Part shown: positions 49,678 to 57,422 of the stretch, one piece after another | Layout: every line of letters begins with the position of its first letter | Numbering within the stretch: the stretch's first letter is position 1 | DNA from: Synechococcus sp. UW140 | GTDB taxonomy: Bacteria; Cyanobacteriota; Cyanobacteriia; PCC-6307; Cyanobiaceae | Assembly: GCA_945875915.1 (NCBI GenBank) | Contig: CAMCMT010000010.1 | Span: 1-64,000 of the forward strand | Length of the DNA stretch: 64,000 nucleotides | Reading direction: 5' to 3' | Made by a program: the position numbers and the translations under genes | Notes under the pieces: generated by a model | What the model saw: the letters and a program-made list of their open reading frames with translations, nothing else | Databases searched by the model: none | What the model was told of the DNA's origin: nothing

Positions 49678-50076
49678 TGGTGGTTATGGCGGGGTAGGGG
49701 CTCTCATTTTGCAGGCAACCACAGCACTGGCCACCTAAGTTGGATACCGCAGTAAGCCTTCTTCATTGCGCATGTAAATAAGCGCAAGAAAAGGCAGTTA
49801 GATTGTTGCTAAATAGTCAAACAAGTATTCAGAGAAGCTAACCGCGTTGGCAGATTAGAACCAATTTTCAAATCTGGAGTAGCCAATTTTTAGGGCTGCA
49901 ATCAGAGCTTTCTGCCGGTTGTTGACGCCCCTGCAAAGCTAGCCGAAAGAGCTGGTTTGTCATGATCGCGGCTCTCCGGGACTTGCGGTGCCCAGATCCA
50001 AGTTAGAGCCAGCGATCACGGCATAAAAAAAGGCGAGCTCAGCAGCCCGCCTCTTGGATCAGAGAACGAAAATGGT
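49678..50076. other. uvrA downstream intergenic region
   Basis: There is no gene here. The first part is AT-richer than the neighbours. An imperfect inverted repeat (TGATCGCGGCTCT at 49963 and AGAGCCAGCGATCA at 50005) could form a stem with a 29-nt loop. A separate hairpin with an A-run on the plus strand (50025-50052) is the likely terminator of the leftward gene that ends at 50077. Confidence 0.6.
50025..50052 (-). terminator. Intrinsic terminator of the FGE-like/CHRD/DUF4114 gene
   Basis: On the minus strand AGGCGGGCT pairs with AGCTCGCCT (9 bp, one wobble) around GCTG, followed by TTTTTTT. It lies 25 bp after the stop codon. Confidence 0.8.
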
Positions 50077-52449
50077 TTAGGCCGCAAATGTGAGATCAAT
50101 AATCAGGTCGTTGTGATCGCGATCGCCACCGCCAAAGACGTCCTCGAAACCAACTTTGTTGGCCGAGAGGTACTTGAAGTGATTGTAACCATCGGCATTC
50201 GCAGCAGTGAAGCTATAGAACGTGTTACCGGTATTTGCGACCGTAGCCACAAGCCCCAGCATGTAGCCGTCAGACTGAAGCGTAAATGATTCAGAAGCTG
50301 ATACGTTGTCTTGGCGGCTCAATGTTATGTTCGAAACCTTGCTGGCTTGGACAGCAGCCGCATAACCAGACTCACCAGGTTTGATCCAAGTACCCGTCAG
50401 GGCATCGACAACGGAACCCTGGGCATCAGCTATCCTATAGAAGAAGGCATCCGTATTGTATGAAGCCGATCGTGAGGCCTGAACCGTTGTAGAGATTAAA
50501 CTAACACTCGAGAGATCAATCATATAGTCTGTGCCATTCCCCTGGTACAGAGATGACGACTGATAGATTTCATCGGGATCAACGTGGTGGCAGTAGCTAT
50601 CTGCGATAGAAGAATCCTCATGAGAGTGAGCCGAACCATCCTCATGAGAGTGAGCCGAACCAGAAAGCATCGCGTTAGAAGTGGTTGAGCCCGATCGAGT
50701 AAACTGCGCGCGAATCTCACCAAGCGCTACTCTTTCGGTGTGTATATTCGTATAAAGTTCTCCAGCGTAGATGTCTTCTAGGCTGTTAGTAAGGCTCACA
50801 ATGCTTTGATCAGAATCTGTCCATTTTCCCGTTAGGGTCCACATGGTTTTAGTTTGATCATAAGTAATATTTAGATCGTTATCCTGATTTGGATTAATTA
50901 GACCAATGTGCGCATCCCCAACGGTATAGTTAGGTGCAACATGGAAATGCATCCCGGCTACATCATCGCCTGGGTCAGTAGTTCTAGGTGTGCCATCGAA
51001 CCACTTGCCGAAATCTAATCCAATAATATTTAATAAATAAATCGCTTCGGTTTTAGCTCTGTTCAGGGTGAGTTGAATTGTTCCATAAGCTGTACTTACT
51101 GTAGGCCATATTTCATTGCGAGAAGTCAGCACTCCTGAGTAAATTTGGTCTTCGTCAGTATCAAACTCACAACAGTTGCATGATGCCCCCACGCTTGACA
51201 AGGTAGAGCTGGCAGTAGCATTTGTTGTCGTAACTGGGGTCGGATTGCTATTAGGTGTAAGAGCACTTGCAGAGGCAAGTCGAAAGCCTGCGGCATATCC
51301 TGCATCATTGGGCATCAGCCCATCGTCACGCAACGACGACCCAGAGGCAGGATTGTAAAAACTGGCTCCACGTTTTGATCTTGTACCATTAACAGATCCA
51401 TTGTAGTCTCCAAATGCAGCTGTAGGATCATATATGCTTTCATTCCACTCAGTGACGTTGCCGTCTTGATCGAAGGTTCCATAATGACTTGCACTGCCGC
51501 TAAATACGCCAACTTCTGTCAGCATATTCGGCCCAACTAAGGGATCTGGCAATTGGCCAAGGAAAATTGTAGACAAAGGTGATTTAGTGAACCCAGTGTT
51601 TGTTCGGGTATTGGCTAGATTTGGTGCAGAGGGGTTGATTAAGGTATTGCCAGGCGTGGTGTCGCTTTTGGTAGCCCAATCGTAATAACCAGCACTCCCT
51701 ATCCCATTTTTATTGGGATTGTAATAAGCTGCTTTGTACCATTCGTTTTCGGTTGGGATCCAATACCTTGCGCCTGAGGCATGGGTTGCCGGTATTACGG
51801 TTACGGTTCCAGATCCAGTCGCTATTCCATTGGAATTTCTATTTTGAACTGTGAAGTAGGTAAACCCATCTTTTTTGGTGACAGATCTGATTGTGCTACG
51901 AGTCTCAAATCCGCTGCCAGTAAGGCCACTCGCTTGTGCCTGGTCTCCCACTGAGATACTTAAATCTCCTGTTGCTTTGTAAGTGATTTTATTATCCCAT
52001 CGCGTAGCGCCCACAAGCGCAGCGGTTGTAATTAAATAGGCGCCACTTTCAGTGCTTCCAGATCCCTTGCCATTGTGCATCCAATTCGCAAAACGAATGG
52101 CATCCAAGTAATTGACATAATTAACTGGCTTATTTTCGCTTCCTTCTGGATTTTGGGTTGATGATGGACTTGTTGATGGAGCGAAGCTGTAACTGTAGTT
52201 TCCAGAACTGCCTGTCCGAGTAATGCCATTGAGTAATTTGTCATCCTGCATCCCTGGATTGAATAGTCCTTTTGGATCAGACTTTGCGACAGCATTTAGA
52301 AACTCAACGTATTGCCCATACGTTGTCTCGTATTTGGAGATATTATAATGATAGTTTACACTACCAAACGCCAAGCCATTTGAGTCGAGCGCATCATTGG
52401 CGTTGTTCAAATCTCCAACAGGAACGAATACCATTGCAGTTGTAGGCAT
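50077..52449 (-). CDS. FGE-like fold / CHRD / DUF4114 fusion protein
   Basis: A 790-residue mosaic. Residues 1-400 resemble the formylglycine-generating-enzyme/SUMF1 fold (YNISKYETTYGQYVEFLN, YWIPTENEWYKAAYY, DQDGNVTEWNE, SKRGASFYNP, GFRLAS). The region that carries catalytic cysteines in true FGE has none, so it is probably a structural or binding domain. Residues 430-590 look like CHRD (IYSGVLTSRNEIWPT, MHFHVAP, GEIRAQF). A His/Asp-rich repeat and a C-terminal DUF4114 (VGFEDVFGGGDRDHNDLIIDL) follow. There is no signal peptide; export by another route is inferred. ATG 52449 is preferred to TTG 52476. Confidence 0.8.
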   Translation of the reverse strand: MPTTAMVFVPVGDLNNANDALDSNGLAFGSVNYHYNISKYETTYGQYVEFLNAVAKSDPKGLFNPGMQDDKLLNGITRTGSSGNYSYSFAPSTSPSSTQNPEGSENKPVNYVNYLDAIRFANWMHNGKGSGSTESGAYLITTAALVGATRWDNKITYKATGDLSISVGDQAQASGLTGSGFETRSTIRSVTKKDGFTYFTVQNRNSNGIATGSGTVTVIPATHASGARYWIPTENEWYKAAYYNPNKNGIGSAGYYDWATKSDTTPGNTLINPSAPNLANTRTNTGFTKSPLSTIFLGQLPDPLVGPNMLTEVGVFSGSASHYGTFDQDGNVTEWNESIYDPTAAFGDYNGSVNGTRSKRGASFYNPASGSSLRDDGLMPNDAGYAAGFRLASASALTPNSNPTPVTTTNATASSTLSSVGASCNCCEFDTDEDQIYSGVLTSRNEIWPTVSTAYGTIQLTLNRAKTEAIYLLNIIGLDFGKWFDGTPRTTDPGDDVAGMHFHVAPNYTVGDAHIGLINPNQDNDLNITYDQTKTMWTLTGKWTDSDQSIVSLTNSLEDIYAGELYTNIHTERVALGEIRAQFTRSGSTTSNAMLSGSAHSHEDGSAHSHEDSSIADSYCHHVDPDEIYQSSSLYQGNGTDYMIDLSSVSLISTTVQASRSASYNTDAFFYRIADAQGSVVDALTGTWIKPGESGYAAAVQASKVSNITLSRQDNVSASESFTLQSDGYMLGLVATVANTGNTFYSFTAANADGYNHFKYLSANKVGFEDVFGGGDRDHNDLIIDLTFAA
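50615..50662 (-). repeat. Two 24-bp tandem repeats encoding AHSHEDGS-type units
   Basis: Two perfect 24-bp units, in frame, encode repeated Ala-His-Ser-His-Glu-Asp stretches in the linker after the CHRD part. The His and acidic residues could bind metal; that is inference. Confidence 0.85.
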
Positions 52450-52501
52450 TTTTAGTAAATTAAAATCAATTTCCAAAATACAGCCAGCCGCTGGCAGTGT
52501 C

Positions 52502-52519
52502 TATCGACCAAGGTCGATA
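52502..52519. promoter_or_regulatory. Perfect 8-bp-arm palindrome upstream of the fusion gene
   Basis: TATCGACC and GGTCGATA are separated by AA, 53 bp upstream of the ATG at 52449. The symmetry and position suit an operator or a 5'-UTR hairpin. No regulator is known. Confidence 0.4.
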
Positions 52520-52686
52520 AAGTGATTCGGGTCTTGCTGGGGAAGGCTGGGGCTAGCCTGGAAAACACGGCCAGACCGACAGATAGAGGTCTTTTAATCG
52601 AAAGTTGGCACTGAATTCATGGGCAGGAGGCAGTTAGGCTTCTTTTGCTGATGTTGGTGCCTTTTTCTTATGAGCCTCTTCCCTTG

Positions 52687-52828
52687 AATTCGATCCTCCT
52701 GGTGATTGAGCTCAACCTTGATATGGTCTGATGCGGCGACTGGGTAATCGACCTAGGTCCAGAAGTGGCCGATAAGGGGGGCGAGATTGTGCTGGCGCAG
52801 CATCCGCCAGAGCTGATGGCGGTTTGAG
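52687..52828 (+). pseudogene. Decayed duplicate of the uvrA 3' end
   Basis: It aligns with uvrA 49471-49677. Shared blocks include GCGGCGACTGGGT, ATCGACCTAGG, GATAAGGG-GGCGAGAT and GGCGCAGCATCCGCCAGAG, ending at a stop (TGA here, TAA in uvrA). It differs by many substitutions, an in-frame TGA at 52728 and a 69-bp in-frame deletion relative to 49573-49641. Similarity fades just past the stop. It is a remnant with no expected function and marks a rearrangement. Confidence 0.85.
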
Positions 52829-52956
52829 AGTGGTTTTGGATGGGTGGGGAAGGACCGGAAGTGCAGGGTGGTGGCTTGAATTACTGTTAAAGTTTGGAGC
52901 TTCTGATTGAATCTGGTGATTATTCCTAAGCCGAGTATGATCTGAACAAAATATAT

Positions 52957-53640
52957 TCATAAAAACTTCCCTAGTAGTTCTCCTGGCATTCCCATCGCAA
53001 TTGGTAATAGACTATTTGACGAAAACATATAGCACCACATTCGCTCAAGGTAGTGACCTTCCACAGGGTTGGAGTGGTGTGACACGGTGGCTAGTAATTG
53101 CTTATAAAAATTGATCGGGTGAGCGTGTACGGCCCTTCTGCTAACGGCAAAACATCCACACATACTGGTGACCGTCAAAAGGGGAAGTGGGCCTAGAAAT
53201 TTAGTCGAATAGTCAATTAGGCTGAGGCTACTTCGTGCCAAAGAGCCATTGTTCCAAGCCTCAACATATTTTGGATCAGCTTCAAAATTGATGGCTTGCC
53301 ACTGGAGTGGGCTGAATATGCCATAGGCAGAGGCTGAAAATCCATATTGGATGGCATGTGGAAAGTAATTCTCAATATTTGTGTATACATTATGACCAAG
53401 ATCATCAATTCTTCCTTGGAGAAAGATTGTGATATCTGGCAGGGATGCATATCTTGTGGTGATGTGATGGAGCCAGGTGTGGGACTCCCTGCCAACGTTG
53501 GGAAGACTAATAATAGCTCCGTGGTTAGTGTTATCAAGGATAGCTCCTTTGTTGTAGATGTGAATAGGGATCTTTCCAAAAATATTATTTAACCACGAAA
53601 TATTTTCGTCGTATCGAGCAATTACCAACTCGGCTTTCAT
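52957..53640 (-). CDS. DUF3431 family protein
   Basis: A 227-residue protein that matches the DUF3431 pattern: ELVIARYDENISWLNNI at the N-terminus, IHIYNKG, SLPNVGRESHTWLHHITTRY, DITIFLQGRIDDLGHN, and ERMWCYMF near the end. This family is glycosyltransferase-like in predicted fold, but the reaction is unknown. ATG at 53640 is chosen over a GTG at 53652. It is AT-richer than the backbone genes and divergent from a UDP-galactopyranose mutase, which suggests a role in surface glycans. Confidence 0.8.
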   Translation of the reverse strand: MKAELVIARYDENISWLNNIFGKIPIHIYNKGAILDNTNHGAIISLPNVGRESHTWLHHITTRYASLPDITIFLQGRIDDLGHNVYTNIENYFPHAIQYGFSASAYGIFSPLQWQAINFEADPKYVEAWNNGSLARSSLSLIDYSTKFLGPLPLLTVTSMCGCFAVSRRAVHAHPINFYKQLLATVSHHSNPVEGHYLERMWCYMFSSNSLLPIAMGMPGELLGKFL

Positions 53641-54013
53641 GTGTTGTGACACGCATAATGATTACTAGGACTTTATCGCTTTGCTCCTACGCTTGTCTAG
53701 TGAGGCCTTGGCTTTATTCCGCACTCGGTTGTGTTTGTTTGTAATGGCAATGCCAGCCGATTTTTTTGATGATATTCTTCAAGTGTTCGTTTTGCGGCTA
53801 AAGTTGACAGACACGCGGTGCTCTATTGTGAAGTCACTTTTAGGATGCATCATCCTGCAATCTGATTTGGTTTTAACTGATTATTCTTGCTGCGACCTGG
53901 TTTGTCTGCGGCCTATGCAATCATTCCGCGATGTTGCTTTGGAGATTTACCGAGGCCGGCCGATATTCAGGGCTGCCGCACTGATTGGTTTGGGATAAGG
54001 ATCACTAGAATGC
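53641..54013. other. Divergent region between the DUF3431 gene and glf
   Basis: 373 bp, AT-rich. A 105-codon open frame (53681-53998, +) contains several cysteines and no recognisable motif; I do not call it a gene. The region must hold the promoters for both flanking genes. Confidence 0.5.
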
Positions 54014-55168
54014 ATGAGCGCAGTCGTTGGTGATCCTGGGATGGTGTTCTTAGTCGTGGGTGCTGGCTTTGCAGGTGCAACCATTGCCAGGACGCTTGCT
54101 GAGGCTGGTCTTCAAGTTGACATCATTGATAAACGTAGTCATGTCGGCGGCAATGCTCACGATTTTGTTAACTGTGTAGGTGAGCGAATTCATCGTTATG
54201 GTCCCCATCTTTTGCATGGCAATCGGCTTAGCCCAGCTGTAGTCTTTCTGAGTCGCTTTACGTCTTGGACCCCCTACGAGCATAGGGTGCGTGCGCTTTT
54301 ACCCGACGGCACCACCACGCCCTTACCTGTTAATCGAACAACGCTTGAAGATATTTTCAACATTCACCTAGATGAAGATGAGTCCGCGAGCCGCTTTCTC
54401 GATTCGATTCGAAGAAGAATACCAAAGCCGGCCAATGCTGATGATCTGTTTTTAAACGGCGTCGGTGAAACATTGGCTGATTTGTTGTTTCGACCCTATA
54501 CCCGCAAGATGTGGGGGATTGAGGCGAGCGAGCTGGATGTTGCAATTGGTGCACGGTTGCCGGTGCGTTGTAACAGAGATGAGCGTTATTTTGCTGATTC
54601 TTTTCAGGCTTTGCCTAAATATGGTTACAATAGGTTGTTTGAATCTATGTTGGATCATCCTAATATTAAGCTGCGCTTGAATCATTCCTTTGAAAAGTCG
54701 ATGCAGCATCATTACAAGCACTGTTTTCTTTGTATTCCGATAGATCGCTATTTCGACTATGTTTATGGAGTCTTGCCTTATCGGTCGATTCGCTTTCACC
54801 ATGGCCAGACCATACATAACCAGGCCGCTACAGTTATTAATTTCACAGATACCGCTCCATATACTCGTGTAACCCAGTGGAGTCTGCTGCCCAATTCGGC
54901 GATATCTGGAAACGGACTACATACAATCACCAAGGAAGAACCCTGTAGCATGGAGGATAATCCAGGTGAGTATTATTATCCAGTTCAAACGTCTGAATCA
55001 CAGCGTTTGTATGGTCTATATCGCCAACTTGCAGCGAACCTACTGGACGTCAGTTTCTGTGGACGAACTGGTTTATTTCGCTATATTGATATGATTCCTG
55101 CTGTTACCATGCACTTAGAGATCGCCGAGCGATTTTTGCAGCAGAATGGTCTTCGCTCAGCGACCTAG
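54014..55168 (+). CDS. glf: UDP-galactopyranose mutase
   Basis: A 384-residue flavoprotein that interconverts UDP-galactopyranose and UDP-galactofuranose, the donor of Galf in surface glycans. The FAD motif is FLVVGAGFAGATIARTLAEAG, followed by IDKRSHVGGNAHDF, IHRYGPHLLHGN, PVNRTTLEDIF, FRPYTRKMWGIEASEL and RYFADSFQALPKYGYNRLFE. The C-terminus has the flavin-binding GLFRYIDMIPAV. ATG 54014 is used; ATG 54041 is also possible. It is AT-richer than its neighbours. Confidence 0.92.
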   Translation: MSAVVGDPGMVFLVVGAGFAGATIARTLAEAGLQVDIIDKRSHVGGNAHDFVNCVGERIHRYGPHLLHGNRLSPAVVFLSRFTSWTPYEHRVRALLPDGTTTPLPVNRTTLEDIFNIHLDEDESASRFLDSIRRRIPKPANADDLFLNGVGETLADLLFRPYTRKMWGIEASELDVAIGARLPVRCNRDERYFADSFQALPKYGYNRLFESMLDHPNIKLRLNHSFEKSMQHHYKHCFLCIPIDRYFDYVYGVLPYRSIRFHHGQTIHNQAATVINFTDTAPYTRVTQWSLLPNSAISGNGLHTITKEEPCSMEDNPGEYYYPVQTSESQRLYGLYRQLAANLLDVSFCGRTGLFRYIDMIPAVTMHLEIAERFLQQNGLRSAT

Positions 55169-55720
55169 CATAAGCTGGCTTGGCTAGACAGGTGTTACAC
55201 CCTGTCCTCATCAAATCAAAGGCCTCTCCCGTCGATGCAGCCCACTTCAGGGCTTCAAACTCCGTGGTGATTGGCTGGTCGGCAAAAAGCACAGTTCATC
55301 TGCAGAATCTGGTTGGAAGCCCCGCTTTATTCGATGCTATCGATCGCTTGGCCATCCAATAGTGTCGAAATGGGGTTGAAGGTGTTTTTTTGCATTGACA
55401 TGGATTGATCATGGGCCCGGTTCGCAATAAAATAGACTTCTGATATCAACGGAAGGGGACAAAGTGAGAAAACTAGTTTGAACCTGGCTTCTGTCATCTC
55501 CCAATTGCTGATGCACCAGATTTGGACGGGCGGTCATTGTGTTGGGGTTGCAGGCCAGCACCACGTAGAGACTGGGAATAGCTGCTATTGGTCTGGTGGG
55601 GCAAGGTATGTCGTTTCTTGTTGTCAATAAATAAATGTTTCACATTATGAATTTAGCTTGGTCATTGGTTAATCTTTTATGCACTATCTGAACGCACTAA
55701 TAATCCTTTGATAGCGTAGC
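55169..55720. other. glf downstream intergenic region
   Basis: 552 bp with only short open frames (such as 55180-55362 + and 55409-55627 -) and no motif I recognise. GACAGGTG and CACCCTGTC near 55189-55208 could pair with a bulge just past glf but lack a T-run. It may be decayed sequence. Confidence 0.45.
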
Positions 55721-56570: not shown

Positions 56571-56678
56571 GTTGGTAGGGCTGCGCCAGTAAAGGTGTGG
56601 AAGTTGAATCGTGGCTGAATGGGTTACTAACGCGAAATTCTGCTAAAGTTGATTGCTAATCTATTGGCATTGATTCCC

Positions 56679-57422
56679 ATGGTTTCCAAGGTTGTTCCAG
56701 CCACTGCCTTGCTGCTGAGCTTGGCCCTGCCGGCAGCAGGTCTGGCCAAGCCCAAGTATGGCTATACCGGTGCCGTTGCTCCGGAGAAGTGGGGTCAGCT
56801 TAGCCCCGAGTACGCAGCCTGCTCCAAGGGCACCAGCCAGGCTCCCCTAAATATCGTCACGGCGAAAACTGTCAAGGATTCTAAGAGCCTGCCCCTAAAG
56901 CCTAATTACATCCCTGGCCCCGCCGAAGTAGTCAATACGGGCACTGGCATTCAAGCCAATCTTAAGGGGGACCTAAAGATCGGTGCAGCCGATTATAAAT
57001 TGTTGCAGTTTCACTTCCATGCCCATGGTGAGGAGGCGATTAACGGCGTTCATTATCCCTTAAATGCCCACCTGGTCCATGCCAACAGCGCGGGAAATCT
57101 TAAGGTGATTGGTGTGAATCTCAAGGTTGGCGCCCCGAATGCCTATCTGGAATCGTTCTGGAGCAAGCTGCCTGCCAAGAAGGATGGAACTGTGAAAGTT
57201 GATCTGCCTTCCCTGGCTGGTTTGTTGCCCAAGTCCCTCGCTTACTTCACCTATACCGGCTCCCTGACCACCCCTCCTTGCACCGAGGGTGTTCAGTTCT
57301 TCATTCTTAAGGAGCCCGTGACGATTTCGGCCAAGCAACTCAACACCTTTGTCAAGTTGTATCCGAACAACGCCCGTCCTGTGCAGCCCTTGAATGGTCG
57401 TGTGATCAAAACAAGCAACTAA
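56679..57422 (+). CDS. Exported alpha-class carbonic anhydrase
   Basis: A 247-residue alpha carbonic anhydrase with a signal peptide (ALLLSLALPAAGLAKP). Zinc ligands are His112 and His114 (LLQFHFHAHGEE) and His131 (AHLVHAN). The SLTTPPCTEGVQFFIL substrate segment with the active-site Thr is intact. The residue two before the third His, normally Glu in the family, is Asn129, and the usual SEH is GEE. It probably interconverts CO2 and bicarbonate outside the cytoplasm, like EcaA. ATG 56679 is chosen over TTG 56649. Confidence 0.92.
   Translation: MVSKVVPATALLLSLALPAAGLAKPKYGYTGAVAPEKWGQLSPEYAACSKGTSQAPLNIVTAKTVKDSKSLPLKPNYIPGPAEVVNTGTGIQANLKGDLKIGAADYKLLQFHFHAHGEEAINGVHYPLNAHLVHANSAGNLKVIGVNLKVGAPNAYLESFWSKLPAKKDGTVKVDLPSLAGLLPKSLAYFTYTGSLTTPPCTEGVQFFILKEPVTISAKQLNTFVKLYPNNARPVQPLNGRVIKTSN

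Follow-up and report, generated by a model that had tools for sequence, protein, structure and literature searches.

Gene, domain architecture and genomic setting

The window, a stretch of 64,000 nucleotides of Synechococcus sp. UW140, carries on its minus strand the gene for an acidic protein (computed pI 4.7), designated here as P0001. Its open reading frame runs from an ATG at 52449 to a stop codon at 50077-50079. P0001 is a real, well-defined fusion of known families. An FGE-sulfatase domain (PF03781; 55.4 bits against a curated cut-off of 23.3, E 9.2e-15), a CHRD domain (PF07452; 38.8 bits against 24.1, E 2e-9) and a DUF4114 domain (PF13448; 33.9 bits against 27, E 6.5e-8) follow one another in the order that had been proposed from the nucleotide sequence alone, and all three were found above the Pfam curated cut-offs. 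The features of the gene are listed in Table 1.

Table 1. Features of the P0001 gene, with positions in the window
Feature	Residues	Window positions	Strand	Basis
P0001, whole gene; FGE-CHRD-DUF4114 protein, 790 aa		50077..52449	minus	Open frame and Pfam
FGE-sulfatase domain (FGE/C-type-lectin-type), Cys-free	3-392	51274..52443	minus	Pfam, model, VIA
Beta-rich insert in the FGE domain	about 140-219	51793..52032	minus	Alignment, model strands, VIA
RSKRGASFYNPASGS, presumed site of the FGE cysteine pair, no Cys	357-371	51337..51381	minus	Alignment, Cys scan
CHRD domain	438-582	50704..51138	minus	Pfam
His/Cys-bearing linker	about 600-622	50584..50652	minus	Junction alignment
Extended C-terminal DUF4114 module	637-790	50080..50541	minus	Also present in further proteins of this genome and of the family
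Pfam DUF4114 core with acidic GGGDRDHNDLII end	722-788	50086..50286	minus	Pfam

No further domain, and no Peptidase_M10_C or RTX match, was found in P0001 by the Pfam scan, and the NCBIfam scan gave no meaningful match. The architecture had also been described as unusual. This holds for the exact three-domain order, which was seen only in P0001 among 400 genomes of the family and 71 loci (of the loci, the full-length or nearest ones were scanned for domains), but not for the two-domain pairings, which recur elsewhere. FGE is paired with CHRD in six proteins from five other genomes of the family, and with DUF4114 once, in an FGE-FGE-DUF4114 protein (L137 in genome G121).

The gene lies in a stretch of low GC content (window positions 49700-55600; 0.46 vs. 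0.64 before it), which also contains a DUF3431 gene and a UDP-galactopyranose mutase gene. The GC content was 0.459 for the P0001 gene, 0.431 and 0.467 for these two genes, respectively, and 0.616 for the window. Since three orthologous genes are also low in GC (0.47-0.50), this property alone is no proof of recent transfer. Five genes neighbouring P0001 were looked for in the orthologous loci, which are short, and none was matched there. A phage origin of P0001 was rejected, as no tblastn match was obtained in 50,697 phage records; a search of PHROGs gave one weak family (phrog_18508, annotated "kinase"; E 1.2e-5, best stretch at residues 321-392). A gene for a eukaryotic-type carbonic anhydrase (PF00194) is located at 56649-57422 of the window.

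Fold and cysteine content of the FGE-like head

A model of the head (residues 1-605) was built from P0001 and 39 relatives. In the FGE part, pLDDT was mostly above 80, with weak stretches at about residues 91-100, 281-310, and 341-360; the CHRD region was poor (ten-residue means of about 39-75). In Foldseek, CarF (5aoh) and ToxD (7spq) were the only matches of the head model at E <0.001. A second alignment of the Foldseek candidates with VIA yielded Z values of 22.5 for a Treponema variable protein (2y3c), 22.0 for CarF, 20.9 for PvdO, 20.8 for human FGE (1y1e), 20.5 for PorK, 20.4 for EgtB, and 19.8 for the Cys-less FGE paralogue 1y4j. Structures 2y3c, 5aoh, 5hha, and 1y1e were aligned over 218-244 residues (Z 20.8-22.5). 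The top Z values obtained with the model differ little and alone assign no function.

P0001 has cysteines only at residues 424, 426, 427, and 620, so that the first of them lies beyond the FGE domain. None is present in the segment RSKRGASFYNPASGS, which we take, as a whole rather than residue by residue, to be the position of the FGE cysteine pair. Structure prediction, proposed together with the claim that the catalytic cysteines are absent, recovered the FGE fold, and the domain lacks the active-site pair as claimed. According to the model, the head of P0001 is an FGE/C-type-lectin-type fold without the FGE catalyst. A catalytic formylglycine-generating enzyme was ruled out by the absence of cysteines from the FGE domain. 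Of the 71 loci with a relative of the head, 39 showed the RG...GFR segment by a simple pattern; one Cys was present in five of these segments and two Cys in none, so the absence of the FGE cysteine pair looks usual in the head family. The single Cys of L070 presumably lies roughly at the first cysteine position of FGE.

Catalysis of another kind, as in EgtB/OvoA or PvdO, by an extracellular FGE-like domain appears improbable. In its favour, the fold is similar to that of PvdO and of EgtB-type enzymes (Z 14-21) and many positions are strongly conserved across the family, but the FGE cysteines are absent, and EgtB/OvoA use an additional His-bearing domain, while no further Pfam domain is present in P0001. 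Even less credible is the FGE domain as a target of a diversity-generating retroelement (DGR). It is suggested by the top structural match, the Treponema variable protein 2y3c, which we assume to be diversified by a DGR; against it, no reverse transcriptase (PF00078) was matched in the genome of strain UW140 (0 matches in G000, completeness 99.94), and it was rejected. In our reading, the FGE head would be a ligand-binding scaffold and not an enzyme making formylglycine.

The beta-rich insert (~80 residues) was seen in five aligned orthologous sequences. Its best listed structure match was the barrel of an E1 enzyme (7sol_A; Z 9.6, rmsd 2.0 over 75 residues). With phmmer, the insert also gave low-level matches to light chains of antibodies (best E 0.003), which were regarded as chance.

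When the four nearest cyanobacterial loci were excluded, the remaining 67 loci with relatives of the head belonged, judged by record title, mostly to Planctomycetota and Verrucomicrobiota, and 53 of them had, close to a possible start, a 12-mer of strong hydrophobicity. A PEP-like motif was found near the frame end in 26 of all 71 loci. The hydrophobic starts and PEP-like ends of these relatives would fit export by the Sec route combined with a sorting tail. Two double-FGE proteins, L132 (985-3057, 691 aa) and L134 (955-2904, 650 aa), had neither a signal-like start nor a recognised tail.

Orthologues and C-terminal tails

The search for the head in 400 genomes of the family, with a match limit of E 1e-6, gave matches in 20 genomes, including that of strain UW140. 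Near-full matches outside this genome were obtained from G317, G299, G385, G300, and G214 (two copies), six proteins in all; four of them were equated with the named loci L055-L058 by equal lengths and scores. The same-genus genomes G001-G005 had no match at this limit (0/5). Together with the low GC content, this absence suggests acquisition or differential loss of the gene.

The six orthologues were 42-61% identical to P0001 and were aligned with it to the end of CHRD or slightly past. Pfam detected CHRD in each of the six, and five of them had a C-terminal Peptidase_M10_C (E 2.7e-6 to 3.1e-9). These five, L055, L056, L057 (which reaches the contig end), L058, and L131, were 47-61% identical to P0001 across FGE and CHRD. 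The sixth, L144, had no Pfam tail match; its end looked similar by eye. DUF4114 was found by Pfam in none of the six at E 0.1. In the junction alignment, the tails are exchanged at the His/Cys-bearing linker or just past it, and the linker of L055-L057 is comparably rich in His and Cys.

In the tree of FGE and CHRD, P0001 grouped with the M10_C-tailed L055-L057, and the other three orthologues were placed outside. Support for this group was 100/100 in the unrooted seven-row tree and 88/96 when three distant rows were added. The branching order inside the group was unsettled, and the branch of P0001 was longer than those of its sisters. Since P0001 groups with M10_C-tailed proteins, M10_C is the likelier ancestral tail, replaced by DUF4114 in P0001. 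Peptidase_M10_C is the C-terminal module of serralysins known for type I secretion. Judged by sequence comparison, the novelty lies in one head on which DUF4114 has taken over from a recognised type I secretion tail. The genome of strain UW140 holds both tail kinds, since PF08548, searched in 12 genomes, has one match there (a 477-aa frame) beside DUF4114. Downstream of the FGE-CHRD gene, a similar, possibly regulatory frame was observed in L055 (4642-5415), L056 (7322-8104), and L058 (3757-4575); it was not seen next to the gene in the window.

The gene might instead be a fusion that arose by chance or is decaying within an island of low GC, giving no functional exported protein. This would agree with the GC content (0.459 vs. 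0.616 in the window), with the lack of an FGE match in the five same-genus genomes, and with the longer branch of P0001. The frame is, however, full-length, the FGE-CHRD order is kept in six orthologues at 42-61% identity, and three orthologous genes are also low in GC (0.47-0.50), which leaves this explanation very little probability.

The last ~150 residues of P0001 were found again in six large frames of the same genome and in one 42-aa fragment. PF13448 gave ten matches there, two of them marginal, and all ten DUF4114 copies (those of P0001 and the 42-aa fragment included) ended 0-4 residues before the stop codon. Besides P0001, nine frames end in the DUF4114 module; the longest, of 8311 aa, is located on contig C9 (L041/L042) and another, of 6190 aa, on contig C1 (L039/L040). 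The N-terminal parts of the DUF4114-tailed frames vary: FG-GAP repeats, Ig-like and cadherin-like domains, and RTX nonapeptides occur, as does DUF4347 ahead of a break in the frame, and other frames show no recognised domain. The C7 and C72 frames have a longer C-terminal half in common, extending beyond the tail. On contig C15, two adjacent frames of the same strand (L047, 1464-9044; 1279 and 1247 aa) were observed, the first with DUF4347 and FG-GAP and the second with Ig/cadherin domains and the DUF4114 tail; they look like one long gene broken in between.

A wider count was made with a profile of seven modules from this genome over loci fetched with P0001 or PF13448, a biased set in which some loci are truncated; 51 of its 59 module copies lay within 13 residues of the stop codon. 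Of the eight non-terminal copies, five are situated upstream of another, terminal copy in the same protein, and three (L159, L174, and L176) are internal, in frames that extend beyond the fetched stretch. The head family of the C48 frame was represented by 13 frames at 52-100% identity, with the module 0-2 residues before the stop codon, and by seven frames at 37-38% identity which gave no DUF4114-module match and end differently; in one further case of this type the gene is broken and the frame covers its front half. The alternative tail does not look like M10_C, and it may be DUF5648-like in these seven distant frames. In a tree of 41 DUF4114 modules, the tail of P0001 was placed with uncertainty on a long branch; the model of the tail, built from six sequences, was too poor for use (pLDDT 46). 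A second novelty, which the original prediction had not mentioned, is that many proteins of the genome terminate in the same DUF4114 module.

In four loci on viral contigs (L188, L189, L190, and L191), DUF4114 was seen in small proteins whose start, by eye, is Sec-like and whose end is PEP-CTERM-like. On contig C49 of the UW140 genome (L050, 407-16000), ABC and HlyD-type genes lie near a 3490-aa frame ending in FEDVNITFAL. This acidic-hydrophobic end resembles the DUF4114 ends, which may be chance.

Predicted export and binding, and relation to known systems

N-termini were compared by a crude hydrophobicity scan (best 12-residue mean) and not by SignalP. The value for P0001 was 1.33 and those for the orthologues were -0.23 to 0.47, vs. 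2.28-3.43 in a comparison set of six hand-picked relatives with Sec-like starts. The FGE homology of P0001 starts inside the first ten residues, and P0001 and its orthologues leave no room for a signal peptide. The original prediction had P0001 without an N-terminal signal, and the scan agrees with it. At possible starts of other DUF4114-linked frames of the genome, the values were 1.57 (C9), at most 1.41 (C1), 1.31 (C48), and 1.76 (C15), the last being moderately hydrophobic.

The same prediction advised looking for a type I secretion system elsewhere in the genome, and its components were indeed present. Three ABC transporters of ~1000 aa each adjoin an HlyD-family gene; a cyclic-nucleotide-binding domain is present in two of them, in one case together with a C39-type peptidase domain. 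Two contigs carry OEP/TolC-type frames; one has two matches, one of which is interrupted by a stop. Among the matches listed, the ABC proteins scored 710, 678, and 628 bits (a fourth match exists); "HlyB-like" is the right term for them, since the curated HlyB cut-off is 725.55.

At the genome level, the association between DUF4114 and HlyB-type transporters was weak. A loose HlyB match was near-universal (96 of 99 genomes). A strong match, at a limit of E <1e-160 picked after the data had been seen, was found in 23 of the 27 genomes with DUF4114 vs. 46 of the 72 without it (Fisher p 0.05), and within the family in 8/10 vs. 33/51 (p 0.47). The DUF4114 genomes having no strong match were G002, G037 (53% complete), G068, and G096; G068 is 95% complete and contains 12 DUF4114 matches. 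By eye, among the matches listed, DUF4114 and HlyB-type genes lay within ~5 kb of each other in one case (contig C9 of G067), and co-location gives little support to a type I reading.

The acidic C-terminal end was conserved among the aligned DUF4114 modules. In other proteins, the domain has been connected with both sugar and calcium: DUF4114 of Acanthamoeba AcMBP-1 is reported to bind mannose (PMC11934332), an Asp of the predicted calcium site of DUF4114 in Myxococcus xanthus PilY1.1 is needed for colony motility (PMC9109919), and DUF4114 is called frequent in sugar-binding proteins (PMC13190605). By analogy with these proteins, and given the conserved acidic end, DUF4114 of P0001 probably binds sugar in a calcium-dependent manner. 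For the head, DGR proteins provide a precedent for a ligand-binding use of the FGE fold (PMC10907252).

We propose, with a probability of roughly 0.6, that P0001 is a non-catalytic surface or matrix binding protein secreted by a type I system, in which DUF4114 fills the terminal role that M10_C has in the relatives. The polypeptide would leave the cell unfolded through the type I secretion system, with the C-terminus leading and the DUF4114 module carrying the terminal targeting information. Outside, the module would fold on binding calcium and then hold a sugar of the envelope or matrix, while the FGE-like head and CHRD would offer faces for binding on the outside of the cell or within the polysaccharide matrix. 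Several observations speak against this proposal: the scores of the ABC proteins below the HlyB cut-off, the weak genome-level association, the four DUF4114 genomes with no strong HlyB match, the occurrence of DUF4114 with Sec-like starts and at the N-terminus of PilY1, the three internal module copies, the double-FGE relatives L132 and L134, the poor model of the tail, and the moderately hydrophobic N-terminus of the C15 frame. The original prediction had left the export of P0001 to "another route"; as the orthologues carry a serralysin-type tail at the position of DUF4114, this becomes a specific type I proposal. The exit route of large signal-less cyanobacterial surface proteins is described as poorly known in two reports (PMC4894872, PMC11424642), the second of which reads large, acidic, signal-less proteins of Synechocystis with calcium motifs as substrates of type I secretion (PMC11424642). 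A text search, which left most subscription papers outside, found no literature linking type I secretion with DUF4114 or FGE-sulfatase.

DUF4114 could also be merely a terminal calcium-dependent sugar anchor, with export directed otherwise, e.g., by the very last residues, and the swap of tails being an exchange of anchors. The mannose binding of AcMBP-1, the N-terminal DUF4114 of PilY1, the combination of a Sec-like start and a PEP-CTERM-like end in the four viral-contig proteins, the alternation of DUF4114 in the C48 family with a tail unlike M10_C, and the weak genome-level link to HlyB-type transporters all agree with an anchor. The near-invariable position at the stop codon (10/10 in the UW140 genome) and the replacement of a known type I tail relative to the orthologues, however, exceed the needs of an anchor, and we regard this alternative as rather unlikely, though not negligible. 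Since Sec-like/PEP-CTERM-like DUF4114 proteins exist and the domain is N-terminal in PilY1, the DUF4114 family overall is not a type I signal, and the claim of export is restricted to its extended terminal form.

Beyond type I secretion of P0001 itself, we tentatively suggest that the extended DUF4114 module of ~155 residues might be a second class of type I tail in cyanobacteria, interchangeable with serralysin/RTX tails and combining export, calcium-dependent folding, and sugar anchoring; this broader suggestion is somewhat less likely to be right than wrong. The natural exchange of M10_C and DUF4114 on the same head offers a direct and simple test of DUF4114 as an export tail. If the suggestion is true, many proteins with a "domain of unknown function" would become predictable secretion substrates, and the extended DUF4114 module would export a set of proteins of up to 8311 aa that differ in their heads.

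Compared with known systems, the head of P0001 has the fold of SUMF1 and of its Cys-less paralogue SUMF2 (1y4j), with Z values of 20.8 and 19.8, respectively; P0001 differs from them in the beta-rich insert, the additional CHRD and DUF4114 domains, and the absent cysteine pair. The top-listed fold is that of Treponema denticola variable protein 1 (2y3c, which we take to be TvpA), with a Z value within ~2 of that of FGE; unlike that system, the P0001 genome has no reverse transcriptase match. P0001 shares DUF4114 with AcMBP-1 and PilY1.1 of M. xanthus, but there the domain is N-terminal and the architectures are different. In serralysin-type substrates of type I secretion, the module is C-terminal, as in P0001, which itself has no M10_C match. 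Closest to P0001 are the FGE-CHRD-Peptidase_M10_C proteins, which have the same head, the same CHRD, no signal-like start, and an equivalent segment without the cysteine pair (four aligned); they end in a serralysin-type tail, whereas P0001 ends in DUF4114.
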